A stretch of 64,000 bases of DNA, taken from the NCBI RefSeq assembly GCF_000739065.1, contig NZ_CP009149.1, forward strand, positions 744,001-808,000. Reading direction: 5' to 3'. The notes beneath the pieces were generated by a model. That model ran no database searches. It was not told the origin of the DNA and saw nothing but the letters and a program-made list of their open reading frames with translations. A program made the position numbers and the translations under genes. Source of the stretch: Methanocaldococcus bathoardescens (GTDB lineage: Archaea; AGJL01; Methanococci; Methanococcales; Methanocaldococcaceae). Below are positions 470 to 40,812 of this stretch, piece by piece; position 1 is the first letter of the stretch, and each line of letters begins with the position of its first letter.

Positions 470-1324
470 ATGTTTGCTTATAAATTATTAGTGGACGAGA
501 GAGGGAAGAGGTATTTATTAAAAAAGAACGTTGAGAAGTTTGGAACAGATTTGGGAATTGTAGATATGAAAGATGTTGAGGAAGGAACAATATTGAAATC
601 CCATAAAGGGCATACATTCTATTTGGTTGAGCCAACAATGTTTGATATCTTAAAGAGAATGAAGAGAACAGTAACTACTTTATTACCAAAAGATATTGGG
701 TTTATTATAGCAAGAGCTGGAATTAGAGAGGGAGAGACAGTAGTTGAAGCTGGAACTGGTTCAGGAGCTTTAACTATGTATTTATCAAATGCTGTTGGTA
801 AAACAGGGAAAGTTATAACCTATGATATAAGACCAGAATTTGCCAAAGTTGCAAGAAAGAATTTGTTGAGAGTAGGAGCTATTAGAAAAGGGCAGAAGAT
901 TATTGGATTGGATGAAGAGTTTGATGATGAAGATGAAATTGAGGTTGAAGATGGGCTTTTCAATGTTATCCAAAAAATTGGTGATGTTAGGGAGAAGATA
1001 GATGAGAAAGATGTTGATGTAATTGTTTTAGATTTACCTGACCCATGGAATGTTGTAGAGAATGCAAAAAAGGCATTGAATAAAAAAAGAGGAAGGATAG
1101 TTACTTATCTTCCATACATAGAGCAGGTTAAAAAAACTGTAGAGAAGCTTAAAGAGGAGGGGTTTTGGGATATACACACTTATGAAATTATTGAGAGGGA
1201 AATTGAGATTTCTGAGAAAGGTGTTAGACCATCAACAAGGATGATTGGGCATACTGGATATATAACAGTTGCGAGAGTTCCACCTGAACCAATTAATGAA
1301 AATGAAGAAGAGAAGGAAGAATAA
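470..1324 (+). CDS. trmI: tRNA (adenine-N1)-methyltransferase TrmI
   Basis: A 284-residue class I SAM methyltransferase of the TrmI/Trm61 family. In archaea this family makes m1A57/m1A58 in the tRNA T-loop, usually as a homotetramer. Visible motifs are the SAM loop VVEAGTGSGALTMYL (about residues 91-105) and motif IV DLPDPW (about 186-191). A small N-terminal barrel domain precedes the Rossmann fold, as usual. The start lies 4 bases after rnhB. The C-terminal tail is acidic (ENEEEKEE). A second, diverged copy of this tail lies downstream at 1390-1458, beyond a palindromic element, so the present stop may have been created or duplicated by the insertion. Confidence 0.93.
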   Translation: MFAYKLLVDERGKRYLLKKNVEKFGTDLGIVDMKDVEEGTILKSHKGHTFYLVEPTMFDILKRMKRTVTTLLPKDIGFIIARAGIREGETVVEAGTGSGALTMYLSNAVGKTGKVITYDIRPEFAKVARKNLLRVGAIRKGQKIIGLDEEFDDEDEIEVEDGLFNVIQKIGDVREKIDEKDVDVIVLDLPDPWNVVENAKKALNKKRGRIVTYLPYIEQVKKTVEKLKEEGFWDIHTYEIIEREIEISEKGVRPSTRMIGHTGYITVARVPPEPINENEEEKEE

Positions 1325-11067: not shown

Positions 11068-11745
11068 ATGCTACTTAGATTATCATCAGGTAATATATTG
11101 AATGAAAAAGTCCATAAAGTAGGAATTATAGCCCTTGGTTCGTTCTTAGAAAATCATGGAGCTGTTTTGCCAATAGACACTGATATAAAAATAGCTTCAT
11201 ACATTGCTTTAAAGGCATCTATTTTAACTGGAGCTAAGTTTTTGGGAGTTGTTATTCCATCAACTGAATATGAGTATGTTAAACATGGCATTCACAACAA
11301 ACCAGAGGATGTTTATAGCTATTTGAGGTTTTTGATAAATGAGGGTAAGAAAATTGGTGTAGAGAAGTTTTTGATAGTTAATTGTCATGGAGGAAACGTC
11401 TTAGTTGAAAGTTTTTTAAAAGATTTAGAATATGAGTTTGGAGTAAAGGTAGAGATGATAAATATAACATTCACTCATGCTTCAACAGAGGAAGTTTCTG
11501 TTGGTTATGTAATTGGCATAGCTAAAGCTGATGAAGAAACTTTGAAAGAGCATAACAACTTTGAAAAATATCCTGAAGTTGGCATGGTTGGATTAAAAGA
11601 GGCGAGAAAAAATAATAAAGCCATAAATGAAGAGGCAGAAGTTGTTGAAAGATTTGGAATTAAATTGGATAAAAAACTTGGAGAGAAAATTTTGAATAAT
11701 GCAATAGAAAAAGTTATTGAAAAAATAAAAGAAATGATAAGGTGA
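11068..11745 (+). CDS. arfB: FAPy deformylase ArfB (creatininase family)
   Basis: A 225-residue creatininase-fold metal amidohydrolase. Metal-site motifs are [17 protein letters not shown] near residue 24 and VNCHGGN near 112. In M. jannaschii the orthologue MJ0116 (recalled) is the Fe(II)-dependent deformylase that removes formate from 2-amino-5-formylamino-6-ribosylaminopyrimidinone phosphate, the second step towards riboflavin and the F420 chromophore. The next gene starts 4 bases after the stop with its GGTGA inside this gene, so they are co-transcribed. Confidence 0.85.
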
Positions 11746-13146: not shown

Positions 13147-13235
13147 CGGCGCAGGGGGGGAATCGAACCCCGAGGGCATTCGCCCTCGACGGATCTGAAG
13201 TCCGCCCCGGGCTACCAAGCCCGGTACCCCGCGCC
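13147..13235 (-). tRNA. selC: tRNA-Sec (anticodon TCA)
   Basis: On the minus strand it begins GGCGCGGGG. It has a long acceptor-plus-T helix pattern (9-bp acceptor), a long D stem CCGGGC/GCCCGG, an anticodon stem CGGAC/GTCCG-type with loop containing TCA, a long variable arm (CGAGGGC/GCCCTCG) and T-arm GGTTCGATTCC. The discriminator is G. TCA decodes UGA, and the UGA-containing selD at 18166 is in the same window. TATA-like TTAATATAA lies about 20-28 bases upstream (13250-13262). Confidence 0.93.
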
Positions 13236-14693: not shown

Positions 14694-16166
14694 ATGGCAA
14701 AAAAAGTTAGTGCAATGGATATCTATAAGTTATTGCCAAAAACAAACTGTAAAAAATGTGGGCAACCATCATGTATGGCATTTGCTACAAAATTGTTAGA
14801 GAAAGAGGCGAGTGTTGACCAGTGTCCTATTCTAAATACTCCAAAATTTGAAGAAAATAGAAAGAAACTTATAGAGCTTATATCCCCACCTGTAAAAGAA
14901 GTGTGGTTTGGAAATGATGAGAAAAAGGCAGTTATGGGTGGAGATGAAGTAATGTATAGATATCAGCTATCATTCTTCAACCCAACACCAATTGGTATTG
15001 ATATAAGTGATGAGTTAAGTGAAGAAGAAATTAAGAATAAAGCTAAAGAAATAGAGAATTTTGCATTTGAAAGAACTGGAGAAAAGCTAAAATTGGACTT
15101 TATTGTTATAAGAAATGCTTCTGGAGATGTTGAGAAATTCAAAAAAGCTATAGAGATAGTAGAAAAAGAAACAAAAATGCCTATTTGTATTGCTTCATTA
15201 AATCCGGAGGTTATAAAAGAAGCTTTAAAAGTAATTAAATCAAAACCAATGGTTTATGCTGCAACAAAAGATACATTAAATGATTTCATAAAAGTCATTA
15301 AAGAGCTTAAAAAAGAAAAGGATGTTGTTTTGGTTTTATCATCAAATAACGTTAAAGATTTAAAAAATATGGCTGCAAAGTGCTTAGCTAATGGTATTGA
15401 AGATTTAGTTTTAGAACCTCACACTTACCCAGAAAATATTGCTGAAACATTAGATTTAAATGTAATGATTAGGAGAAGTGCAATAGAAAGAGGAGACAAA
15501 TACTTAGGATTCCCAATATTAAATTTACCAATTAACGCTTATTATTACGCTTTAAAAAATGAATGTCCAATTTCTGGATTCTTTGATGATAAAGAAGTTA
15601 TTGCTAAGATGTTTGAAGCAACTATTGCCAACACATTAATGAATAGATATGCAGATGCTTTAATTATGCACGGAACAGATGTTTGGGAATTAATGCCTGT
15701 ATTAACATTGAGACAATGTATCTATACCGACCCAAGAAAACCACAAGCAGTTGAACCTGGATTATATCCAATTGGCAATCCAGATGAAAACAGCCCAGTT
15801 ATATTAACAACAAACTTCTCATTAACATTCTATACAGTTACTGGAGACTTTGAGAAAGATAATGTTACCTGCTGGTTATTAGTAATGGATACTGGAGGAA
15901 AGGCTGTTGATGTCTCAGTTGCAGGAGGGCAATATAATGGAGAGAATGCTAAAAAATTAATTGAAGAGACAGGAATTGCTGATAAAGTTAGCCATAGAAT
16001 ATTAATTTTACCAGCATTGGCTGCATCAACAAGAGGAGATATTGAAGATAAAACTGGATGGACTTGTATTGTTGGAACAAGAGATTCATCTCAAGTTGGT
16101 GACTTCTTAAGGAAAAACTGGGATAAAATATTAAAAGAGTGGAAAGAAAAGAATCAAACCGCATAA
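14694..16166 (+). CDS. cdhE: CODH/acetyl-CoA synthase gamma subunit (corrinoid Fe-S protein, large)
   Basis: 490 residues. The N-terminal [4Fe-4S] domain (MDIYKLLPKTNCKKCGQPSC ... CPIL) precedes a TIM-barrel and a C-terminal corrinoid-binding domain (LTTNFSLTFYTVTGDF, DTGGKAVDVSVAGG, HRILILPALAA). It holds the cobamide that carries the methyl group between the pterin carrier and the CODH/ACS A-cluster. The start at 14694 is set by GGTGATT. It is co-transcribed with cdhD. Confidence 0.95.
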   Translation: MAKKVSAMDIYKLLPKTNCKKCGQPSCMAFATKLLEKEASVDQCPILNTPKFEENRKKLIELISPPVKEVWFGNDEKKAVMGGDEVMYRYQLSFFNPTPIGIDISDELSEEEIKNKAKEIENFAFERTGEKLKLDFIVIRNASGDVEKFKKAIEIVEKETKMPICIASLNPEVIKEALKVIKSKPMVYAATKDTLNDFIKVIKELKKEKDVVLVLSSNNVKDLKNMAAKCLANGIEDLVLEPHTYPENIAETLDLNVMIRRSAIERGDKYLGFPILNLPINAYYYALKNECPISGFFDDKEVIAKMFEATIANTLMNRYADALIMHGTDVWELMPVLTLRQCIYTDPRKPQAVEPGLYPIGNPDENSPVILTTNFSLTFYTVTGDFEKDNVTCWLLVMDTGGKAVDVSVAGGQYNGENAKKLIEETGIADKVSHRILILPALAASTRGDIEDKTGWTCIVGTRDSSQVGDFLRKNWDKILKEWKEKNQTA

Positions 16167-18165: not shown

Positions 18166-19215
18166 ATGGAAAAGGCTAATGAGAAAATAAAATTAACTGA
18201 ATTAGTTAAATTGCATGGATGAGCTTGCAAACTGCCCAGCACCGAGTTAGAGTCTTTAGTTAAAGGAATAGTTACTGATGATGATTTATCAGACAAAAAT
18301 ATTTTGGTTGGTTTGGGGGATGATGCATCAATAATTAAAAGAAACGGGTTGGTTATAGCAAAGACAGTTGATGTTTTCACACCAATTGTTGACGACCCCT
18401 ATATACAAGGAAAGATTGCTGCTTGCAATTCAACAAGCGACATCTATGCTATGGGATTATTGGATATAGTAGGTGTTTTAGCAATAGTGGGAATTCCTGA
18501 AAAACTTCCAATACATATAGTTAGAGAGATGTTAAAGGGGTTTCAAGATTTTTGTAGAGAGAACAAAACATCAATTGTTGGTGGGCATACTATACTAAAC
18601 CCATGGCCTCTAATTGGAGGGGCAGTTACAGGTGTTGGGAGAGAGGAAGAGATTTTAACAAAAGGTGGAGCTAAAGAAGGAGATATTTTAATATTAACAA
18701 AACCATTAGGAACTCAAACAGCGATGGCATTATCAAGAATTCCAGAGGAATTTAAAGATTTAATCAACATTGCTGAGGAGGAAGAAAAATACATTATAGA
18801 TAAAGCAATAGAGATAATGACAACATCAAATAGATATGGATTAATGGCTTTAAGAAAAGCAGAAGAAAGAGTTGGAGATAAAATAGCAAATGCTTTAACA
18901 GATATTACTGGATTTGGTATATTAGGGCATTCAAATGAAGTAGCCAAAAACAGTAACGTTTTGATAGAAATTACTTCACTACCCTGCATAAAAAAGACGC
19001 CTGAGTTGAGTAGATTATTTGGCCATGCATTATTGGATGGATATGGAGCTGAAACTGCAGGAGGATTGTTAATATCGGCAAAAAAAGAATATAAAGATGA
19101 TCTAATTGATGAGTTAGAGAAAGCTAAATGTTGTGCGTTTGAAGTTGGTAGGGTTGTGAAAAAAGGTGAAGGAAAAGCAGTTTTAAGTAAAGATGTTGAA
19201 ATAGTTGAGGTCTAA
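18166..19215 (+). CDS. selD: Selenophosphate synthetase, selenoprotein (in-frame UGA = Sec19)
   Basis: 349 codons. ATG 18166 has GGTGAG upstream. UGA at 18220-18222 is read as selenocysteine in LHG-U-ACKLP, where other SelD proteins have Cys or Sec. After the UGA the frame continues LPSTELESLVKG, GLGDDASIIKRNG (ATP/metal binding), TVDVFTPIVDDPYIQGKIAACNSTSDIYAMG and a full AIRS-like fold to the stop at 19213. A SECIS hairpin lies in the 3' UTR (19311-19341), and tRNA-Sec is at 13147. The enzyme makes monoselenophosphate from selenide and ATP for its own synthesis and that of other selenoproteins. A caller that stops at UGA would miss the N-terminus. Confidence 0.95.
18232..18251 (+). repeat. 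20-bp inverted repeat, left arm, just after the Sec codon
   Basis: CTGCCCAGCACCGAGTTAGA encodes LPSTELE (codons 23-29), starting 9 bases after the UGA. It is perfectly complementary to 19211-19230 at the selD stop. A match this long is not expected by chance within a kilobase. Confidence 0.9.
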
Positions 19216-19230
19216 CTCGGTGCTGGGCAG
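19211..19230 (+). repeat. 20-bp inverted repeat, right arm, at selD stop/3' UTR
   Basis: TCTAACTCGGTGCTGGGCAG covers the stop codon (19213-19215) and the first 15 bases of the 3' UTR. It is the exact reverse complement of 18232-18251. In the mRNA it could pair with the region downstream of the Sec codon. Confidence 0.9.
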
Positions 19231-19238
19231 GTATTATG

Positions 19239-19287
19239 GGACTTTTGCAGGAATAAATGTTCTATTGAATATAAACTGCGAGAGTCC
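19239..19287 (+). promoter_or_regulatory. 12-bp stem in selD 3' UTR, before the SECIS
   Basis: GGACTTTTGCAG (19239-19250) pairs with CTGCGAGAGTCC (19276-19287) through 12 pairs, two of them G-U, around a 25-base AT-rich loop. It lies between the 20-base complementary arm and the SECIS hairpin. The function is unknown. Confidence 0.55.
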
Positions 19288-19310
19288 TTAATATTAAAAA
19301 CGTCCCTGCC

Positions 19311-19341
19311 GATGTGCCGAACCCTTTAAGGGAGGCACATC
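19311..19341 (+). promoter_or_regulatory. Archaeal SECIS element
   Basis: GATGTGCC (19311-19318) pairs with GGCACATC (19334-19341). The internal loop is GAA (19319-19321) opposite a single A (19333). An upper CCC/GGG stem and TTTAA apical loop complete the hairpin. This is the archaeal SECIS consensus, located in the 3' UTR, and directs UGA decoding in selD. Confidence 0.93.
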
Positions 19342-19492
19342 GAAGATAGCTGATTTTTTATTCCCATTTTTGACTAAATTTTTTATACCACTACTTTAAT
19401 TAAACTATTTTACCTAAAAGTATAAAAATTAAATGAAAAATTTAAAATTAAGATTTAAGGTTATAACTCAATAAACTTCCTTGGGTGAAAGT

Positions 19493-25283: not shown

Positions 25284-26276
25284 GTTAAAATCAGACCGTT
25301 TCGGTATGGAAACTGCATAAAATTTAGCTTGTTCTAAATAATCTAATTCGTTAAAGTTAAAATCAGACCGTTTCGGTATGGAAACATCGGTTAGGTAGGT
25401 TGTGGTAGGTAGTAACCGAAAGTTAAAATCAGACCGTTTCGGTATGGAAACAATGATATCAACGTATTAATTCAAGAAACAAATAGGGTTAAAATCAGAC
25501 CGTTTCGGTATGGAAACAAGGATGAGATTGAAGAAACTGATGAAATGAAACCGGTTAAAATCAGACCGTTTCGGTATGGAAACTATTAGAAAATAACACA
25601 ATAGTTGACTGGAAAACTTCTAAATATTCGTTAAAATCAGACCGTTTCGGTATGGAAACAATGATCCAAATTTGGTTATTGGAAGATTAGCGTTAAAATC
25701 AGACCGTTTCGGTATGGAAACGCCACTATCGGTTGGATATTTTTTGTATTTGTGTTAAAATCAGACCGTTTCGGTATGGAAACCATTTTGATTTTACTTC
25801 AATTGATTTTACAATTTTACATTTATCTATAGTTAAAATCAGACCGTTTCGGTATGGAAACAATTTGTCATTATCAATCATAGTAAAAATATTTTTATAA
25901 TAGTTAAAATCAGACCGTTTCGGTATGGAAACGCGGGTGCGTTTTCCACAGTTGCAAAGAAAAAAGTAAGTTAAAATCAGACCGTTACGGTATGGAAACA
26001 CACTACTGAACATATTTTGTAATCCTGTTAAATATCCCGCAGTTAAAATCAGACCGTTACGGTATGGAAACTACTCTCTCACCTCACTTGTTTTTTTTAA
26101 GATTATGTTTTAGTTAAAATCAGACCGTTACGGTATGGAAACGATTGGGTGCTTATTTTAGTTGTAGTTATTTTAGTTGTGTTAAAATCAGACCGTTACG
26201 GTATGGAAACAAAAAGTTATAATGTTTGGATAAAGGTGGAAAAATGGTTAAAATCAGACCGTTTCGGTGTAAAAAC
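25284..26276 (+). CRISPR. CRISPR array 1, 15 repeats / 14 spacers
   Basis: The 30-base repeat starts GTTAAAATCAGACCG and ends CGGTATGGAAAC. Repeats start at 25284, 25356, 25422, 25488, 25554, 25630, 25692, 25754, 25832, 25903, 25970, 26042, 26113, 26181 and 26247. Spacers are 32-48 bases. The first ten repeats have loop TTT between CCG and CGG. Repeats 11-14 have TTA. The last (26247) is degenerate at its 3' end, marking the old end; the leader is on the left. Protein-like frames across the array are artefacts of repeat periodicity. No cas genes are nearby. Confidence 0.98.
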
Positions 26277-40069: not shown

Positions 40070-40580
40070 GTTAAAATCAGACCGATTCGGTATGGAAACA
40101 AAATTAAAATGCCAAAAGTTGCAACACAATTAGCAAAAGAGTTAAAATCAGACCGATTCGGTATGGAAACGATATTAATTTATCACTTCCAGACATCTTT
40201 AAGAAAGTTAAAATCAGACCGATTCGGTATGGAAACAAAAATCAAAGACATCGAATACAAAATTAATCTCATGTTAAAATCAGACCGATTCGGTATGGAA
40301 ACGAATAATAATCCTTATCAAAAATGTATATCCCTCTTAGTTAAAATCAGACCGATTCGGTATGGAAACCATTATCAACCTTTATAACTGCAAAAAGTAA
40401 TTTTTGTTTATGGTTAAAATCAGACCGATTCGGTATGGAAACATTTTTTTAATTTTTGTCTCGTTTAGTATTTTTTGGAGTTAAAATCAGACCGAATCGG
40501 TATGGAAACTACAACTCCCTTAATAATTTTTGTTTCTTTTTTAAGAGATAGTTAAAATCAGACCTCTTAGAGGATGAAAA
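40070..40580 (+). CRISPR. CRISPR array 2, 8 repeats / 7 spacers
   Basis: Repeats start at 40070, 40141, 40207, 40273, 40340, 40413, 40480 and 40551. Spacers are 36-43 bases. Repeats 1-6 have loop ATT between CCG and CGG, repeat 7 has AAT. The last repeat (40551-40580) is degenerate, yet has CCTC-TTA-GAGG in place of CCG-NNN-CGG, so a hairpin remains possible. The leader is on the left and no cas genes are adjacent. A frame across the array is an artefact. Confidence 0.98.
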
Positions 40581-40812
40581 TAAACTCTTTTTAAAAATAA
40601 AAAATAGAACATATCAATAGGAGCTAACATCATATAGAAGAAGAAAATCTTATTTTTAAAGCATAAAATAAAGCATTTCTAAAAATATCTATTCTTTTGA
40701 ATCTATTTTGTCATACTGATGATTTAATTTTTAATACTTTAAAACTTTAAAATTTTTATATGTCCTTTTATATACTCTAAAGATTACCCAAAAATAGGCA
40801 GAGGTTATGATT

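Follow-up and report, generated by a model that had tools for sequence, protein, structure and literature searches.

A co-evolving long-range helix that probably docks the distant selenocysteine insertion signal beside the selenocysteine codon of selD in Methanocaldococcus

The selD gene of Methanocaldococcus bathoardescens, which encodes a selenophosphate synthetase that is itself a selenoprotein, raises the question of how a selenocysteine insertion sequence (SECIS) in the 3' untranslated region (UTR) acts on a selenocysteine (Sec) UGA codon about 1 kb upstream. The gene was studied in a stretch of 64,000 nucleotides (contig NZ_CP009149.1, positions 744,001 to 808,000; hereafter, the window). 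A preliminary description of this DNA had pointed out a perfect 20-base complementarity between codons starting nine bases past the UGA and a segment that includes the stop codon, and these observations were confirmed to the base (Table 1). The peptide said to be encoded by the coding arm, LPSTELE, had to be shortened to LPSTEL, as only the first two bases of the final Glu codon are included. The two arms are 979 nt apart in the window. The SECIS, located by a structural scan written in Python, shows the archaeal pattern, a kink-like internal loop of the GAA/A type flanked by GC clamps. A local 3'-UTR fold (GGGCAGG/CCTGCC) was set aside because it is not conserved in relatives.

The match was also said to exceed chance, which agrees with our comparisons. 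Among 63 window open reading frames (ORFs) of at least 120 amino acids, to which this null comparison was confined, the best exact complement between the start of an ORF and its end or 3' flank was 12 bp, against 20 bp in selD. In eight whole genomes scanned, a 14-nt core of the arm was confined to the two selD sites. Six exact inverted repeats of at least 16 bp within 1.5 kb were found in the window; one of them exceeds the selD pair (21 bp, arms about 160 bp apart), and the selD pair is the sole GC-rich one with arms about 1 kb apart.

The locus was compared across 36 genomes of the order Methanococcales, 33 of which hold selD with the UGA, in a single copy each; the start of the gene is cut off in G026, and a phylum-wide search returned no selD relatives from beyond the order. 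Four sets were distinguished: the genus of the window (Methanocaldococcus), a sister genus (g5, two genomes, probably Methanotorris), Methanothermococcus-like genomes (g3/g4), and mesophilic Methanococcus-like genomes (g2). The helix was present in all 15 selD-holding genomes of the first two sets (13 Methanocaldococcus and both g5), with 16–20 Watson-Crick pairs starting at UGA+12, and on the SelD tree these genomes are separated from the rest by a branch with full support. In the alignment of both arms (12 distinct rows), 95.4% of the cells were paired, falling to 47% at most when the partner was slid by 1–3 columns. Compensatory, two-sided changes were seen at 7 of the 20 helix pairs, and none of 500 shuffles reached the covariation score. 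Read from the SelD tree, these changes would have arisen in some eight or nine independent events. Pairs 1–16 are all Watson-Crick in every genome, bar one terminal mismatch, with almost no G-U intermediates, and the helix is kept across the clade although the flanking sequence diverges. The preliminary description had proposed to look in relatives for loss of the arm or for uncompensated divergence; instead, the arm was found in every close relative with selD, and its divergence is compensated. Moreover, among eight close relatives the longest invariant run of the selD coding sequence (28 nt at UGA+6; the runner-up has 12 nt) contains the 5' arm. Partition-function calculations on the whole 1.2-kb mRNA predict the 16 inner pairs with probabilities that average 0.93–1.00 at 37°C and 0.88–0.99 at 80°C. 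On this comparative evidence, we conclude that the selD arms form a real, conserved and co-evolving long-range helix.

In the remaining groups the same pairing takes another form. The helix was at first judged to be missing from Methanothermococcus- and Methanococcus-like genomes because the 3' UTR alone was inspected, a judgement that was rejected when a search beyond the 3' UTR revealed an arm in the coding sequence. In g3/g4 there is no arm in the selD 3' UTR; the 5' arm at UGA+12 pairs over 10–17 bp with C-terminal codons (GGTGTTGGGAAG and variants) that lie some 50 nt upstream of the stop codon. Matched changes are found here as well (CAACACC/GGTGTTG, CAACGCC/GGCGTTG, and CAATACC/GGTATTG), and with both layouts pooled 97.5% of the cells were paired and five pairs had changed on both sides. 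Since the same 5' arm pairs with a coding arm in g3/g4 and g2, the pairing would predate the 3'-UTR arm seen today, through which it became longer in the hyperthermophile clade. The earlier proposal that the 3'-UTR arm evolved to match the coding arm is therefore to be modified: the two do covary, but the 3'-UTR arm has probably replaced a shorter, older arm in the C-terminal coding sequence, which the Methanothermococcus-like genomes still use. The helix measures 16–20 bp in Methanocaldococcus and g5, 10–17 bp in g3/g4, and 10–11 bp, with a bulge, in g2. Its length may be linked to growth temperature, with the temperatures of these groups being those that we assume from genus-level knowledge of the likely genera.

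The geometry of the pairing suggests what it is for. Along the chain, the UGA and the SECIS are 1025–1124 nt apart; through the helix (the effective distance, measured from the UGA to the GAA of the SECIS) they are 38–63 nt apart in 13 of the 15 genomes. The two exceptions both carry inserts: the distance is 100 nt in the window and 118 nt in G013. Given that the 3' arm lies 5' of the SECIS, pairing brings the SECIS to the helix end nearest the UGA. We consider it quite likely, from the arrangement of the sequences, that in selD mRNA the helix docks the SECIS of the 3' UTR next to the Sec UGA, and we infer from this a gain in recoding and contacts with proteins. The 3' arm just upstream of the SECIS would pair in antiparallel fashion with codons 4–10 past the UGA, and the SECIS would emerge at the UGA-proximal helix end, 38–63 nt from the UGA in most genomes rather than about 1,050. 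A ribosome with the UGA in its A site would then be positioned at the base of the helix, close to the SECIS and to a putative binding factor or aSelB; in archaea, no SECIS-binding factor is known (PMC11881835). After Sec insertion the ribosome would open the helix, which may re-form behind it.

Similar tethers were found in other selenoprotein genes of the compared genomes. In-frame UGA genes were sought by pairwise similarity, a noisy search that nevertheless yielded the motifs of hdrA, vhuD, vhuU, fruA, and fwdB, while fdhA was found by a general frame scan; gene names (fwB1, fwB2, hdrA, vhuD, vhuU, etc.) were assigned from motif and neighbourhood. On whole genomes, a covariance model built on the selD SECIS alone missed most other SECIS. 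The fwB2 gene has a helix of 16–19 bp at UGA+30/32, with an effective distance of 53–62 nt (L059, L064, L066, L068, and L069), and fwB1 one of 18–25 bp at UGA+26 (49–53 nt) together with a second of 13 bp at UGA+109 (L058 and others). At 7 of 13 hdrA loci a helix of 24–28 bp starts at UGA+38 (+32 in g5), giving 59–67 nt, and is accompanied by a second of 17–19 bp. The flanks of the 5'-UTR SECIS of fdhA (G000, G006, and G035; L112, L113, and L115) pair over 16–17 nt at UGA+28 and over 8–11 nt at UGA+45. In vhuD, a helix of 13–16 bp starts 48 nt past the second UGA, and in the sole genome in which this UGA has become TGT (Cys; G012, L070) the downstream helix is gone. No tether was found in vhuU, whose SECIS is only 76–85 nt from the UGA. 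The claim that the selD helix brings the SECIS near the UGA is thus consistent with a constant geometry across five kinds of selenoprotein gene. Tethers are present in most distant-SECIS genes of these genomes, apparently once by way of a separate small RNA.

This candidate RNA is an element of about 100 nt behind fwB1, in which a SECIS comes after the arms GGGTGGGCGTGCA-ACGCTAACCATCTTTGGGG-TATCCTACATCCTGC; in G003 it lies at about 1137153–1137250 of C1. The two outer arms pair with fwB1 (fwdB-type) at UGA+26 (17–19 bp) and UGA+109 (13 bp), and the middle arm pairs over 21–23 bp at UGA+10 with hdrA, which lies 7.2 kb upstream. The hdrA-matching sequence occurs in all 14 Methanocaldococcus genomes, normally as one copy in hdrA and another in the element (two incomplete genomes lack either copy), and was not found in any other genus. 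In G002, G012, and G008 the element stands apart from its targets (Table 1). The structural scan of G002 and G012 found no SECIS near hdrA or fwB1, only those of vhuD and vhuU and detached ones, and in G002 two hdrA changes and one fwB1 change are mirrored in the element. From these data it is reasonably probable that base-paired docking is general and that Methanocaldococcus encodes a stand-alone, trans-acting SECIS RNA for hdrA and fwdB-type mRNAs. Such an RNA would, if real, also support a docking role of the selD helix, as nothing but pairing would then connect its SECIS with the UGAs that it serves. Separately, at four hdrA loci (L065, L070, L071, and L073) the UGA is kept and no GAA/A SECIS lies past the stop; the 3' remnant there is a hairpin with AGATGA...CTGAT-like borders, resembling a kink-turn or C/D box, and corresponds to the base of the Rfam flpD RNA.

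Several observations weigh against docking as the role of these helices. A strong cis tether was not found at six hdrA loci (L060, L063, L065, L070, L071, and L073), nor was any tether found for the first vhuD UGA, about 400 nt from the SECIS. In selD itself the register of the helix is lost in G018–G020, the g2 version makes a weak tether (pairing probability with the C-terminal region of 0.82 at 37°C), and in the window the SECIS stays 100 nt from the UGA if the insert is not folded out of the way. In addition, in M. maripaludis an archaeal SECIS works at 520–679 nt without a designed tether (PMC9622424), which means that docking is not strictly required and is likely an aid. Perhaps the need for it is stronger at high temperature. 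Finally, in a reporter of fdhA1 with complementary flanks, total activity was not significantly changed, mRNA was three-fold lower, and activity per mRNA was two-fold higher (PMC11881835); the last result speaks for docking, but the gain is visible only after normalising.

The selD helix might also act in other ways. As it starts 9 nt after the UGA, it could pause the ribosome and favour Sec-tRNA over release, with the proximity of the SECIS being incidental; structures of this kind, such as the selenocysteine redefinition element (SRE) of SELENON, stimulate Sec insertion from just past the UGA (PMC8704476). However, the spacing of 9–12 nt in selD becomes 26–38 nt in fwB1, fwB2, hdrA, and fdhA, which places the helix out of reach for a ribosome at the UGA, and a local hairpin would suffice for pausing, yet the partner arm always adjoins the SECIS. 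We regard this role as unlikely. Less probable still is that the helix, which unites start and stop codon, governs the life or translation of the mRNA through nuclease protection or exposure or ribosome recycling, and not recoding. The three-fold loss of reporter mRNA caused by the complementary flanks (PMC11881835) would fit it, but the tethers in UGA genes scale with SECIS distance, being absent in vhuU; no other tested window ORF has one; and the vhuD helix was lost where the UGA became Cys.

It is very improbable that the 3' arm works in trans, as an antisense RNA derived from the 3' UTR that damps selD translation. Arms in 3' UTRs could be released as small RNAs, and these genomes do contain an element that combines a SECIS with arms antisense to other genes; nevertheless, the selD arm was found once per genome besides its target, in g3/g4 it lies within coding sequence, and intramolecular pairing is predicted to be almost complete. 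Hardly credible is an inverted repeat of the DNA, kept identical by template switching or conversion and with no function as RNA. The near absence of G-U intermediates agrees with it but also fits selection at 80°C, and the relocated partner arm, the clade-wide conservation despite diverging flanks, and the matched changes at the unlinked hdrA and candidate small-RNA sites speak against it.

In bacteria, the SECIS is a local hairpin in the coding sequence; docking in selD would reach the same end result, a SECIS close behind the UGA, but by a tether to a distant SECIS. The preliminary description knew of no archaeal selenoprotein mRNA with a long-range helix, which does not hold: the 5'-UTR SECIS of fdhA1 has flanks complementary to the ORF, conserved in Methanococcales and longer in thermophiles (PMC11881835), and this arrangement recurred in our fdhA comparison of G000, G006, and G035. 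The selD helix is likewise conserved in the order (15 of 15 genomes in one clade, with the relocated, weak or lost versions described above), and its 38–63 nt in 13 of 15 genomes compare with about 43 nt from UGA to SECIS in fdhA1. In fdhA1, however, two arms flank a SECIS located in the 5' UTR, whereas the selD SECIS is in the 3' UTR and has a single arm, longer and overlapping the stop codon, on its 5' side. The selD tether is therefore a variation on the fdhA1 arrangement and not the same element. That paper covers fdhA1 only, and its text mentions neither selD nor a 3'-UTR case; in the part of the open literature that was covered, no report of a selD tether and no paper on a trans-acting SECIS were found. 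With the SRE of SELENON (PMC8704476), selD shares an RNA structure shortly past the Sec UGA, but the SRE is local, while the selD partner arm is about 1 kb away, carries the SECIS and forms no local stem-loop with the coding arm. As in the long-range readthrough of tombusviruses (PMC3234231), a recoding site is paired over a distance with a 3' element; the viral case differs in spanning about 3.5 kb, in joining a stem-loop near the stop to a replication structure, and in working without SECIS or Sec-tRNA.

Table 1. Features of the selD locus in the window and copies of the candidate SECIS RNA element in other loci.
Feature	Sequence	Position	Strand	Basis or remarks
selD gene for selenophosphate synthetase (a selenoprotein), with a single in-frame UGA	window	18166..19215	+	homologous frame, one TGA in all relatives with the whole gene
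Selenocysteine UGA codon	window	18220..18222	+	TGA conserved, context HGUACKLP
Spacer from UGA to helix, 9 nt	window	18223..18231	+	
5' (coding) arm of predicted long-range helix, CTGCCCAGCACCGAGTTAGA	window	18232..18251	+	exact complement of 3' arm; compensatory changes
3' arm, covering the stop codon and the beginning of the 3' UTR	window	19211..19230	+	exact complement; compensatory changes
Stop codon TAA inside the 3' arm	window	19213..19215	+	
Palindromic insert between 3' arm and SECIS, 12-bp hairpin fold	window	19239..19287	+	
SECIS hairpin, GAA/A type	window	19310..19342	+	structural scan
Element copy	L058	about 11331–11420	minus	
Element copy	L071 (G002)	15184–15270		downstream of rsmA-like gene, 4.8 kb from fwB1 UGA
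Element copy	L078 (G012)	about 730–820		442 kb from hdrA, between two opposite-strand genes
Element copy	L079 (G008)			other contig, upstream of thi4-like gene

No counterpart of the palindromic insert of the window was found in the other selD 3' UTRs. A similar palindrome sits beside the fruA SECIS in G003 (L062, about 11121–11215), and the two are possibly copies of a mobile repeat. The window also holds the tRNA-Sec gene (13148–13235, minus strand), about 5 kb from selD, and two CRISPR arrays with related repeats (25284–26210 and 40070–40581).

That most distant-SECIS genes of one lineage carry a co-evolving tether suggests that RNA pairing shortens the distance from a SECIS in the UTR to its UGA. 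Should the trans-acting RNA prove real, one recoding signal, encoded as a gene of its own, could be shared by several mRNAs, and it could be engineered.
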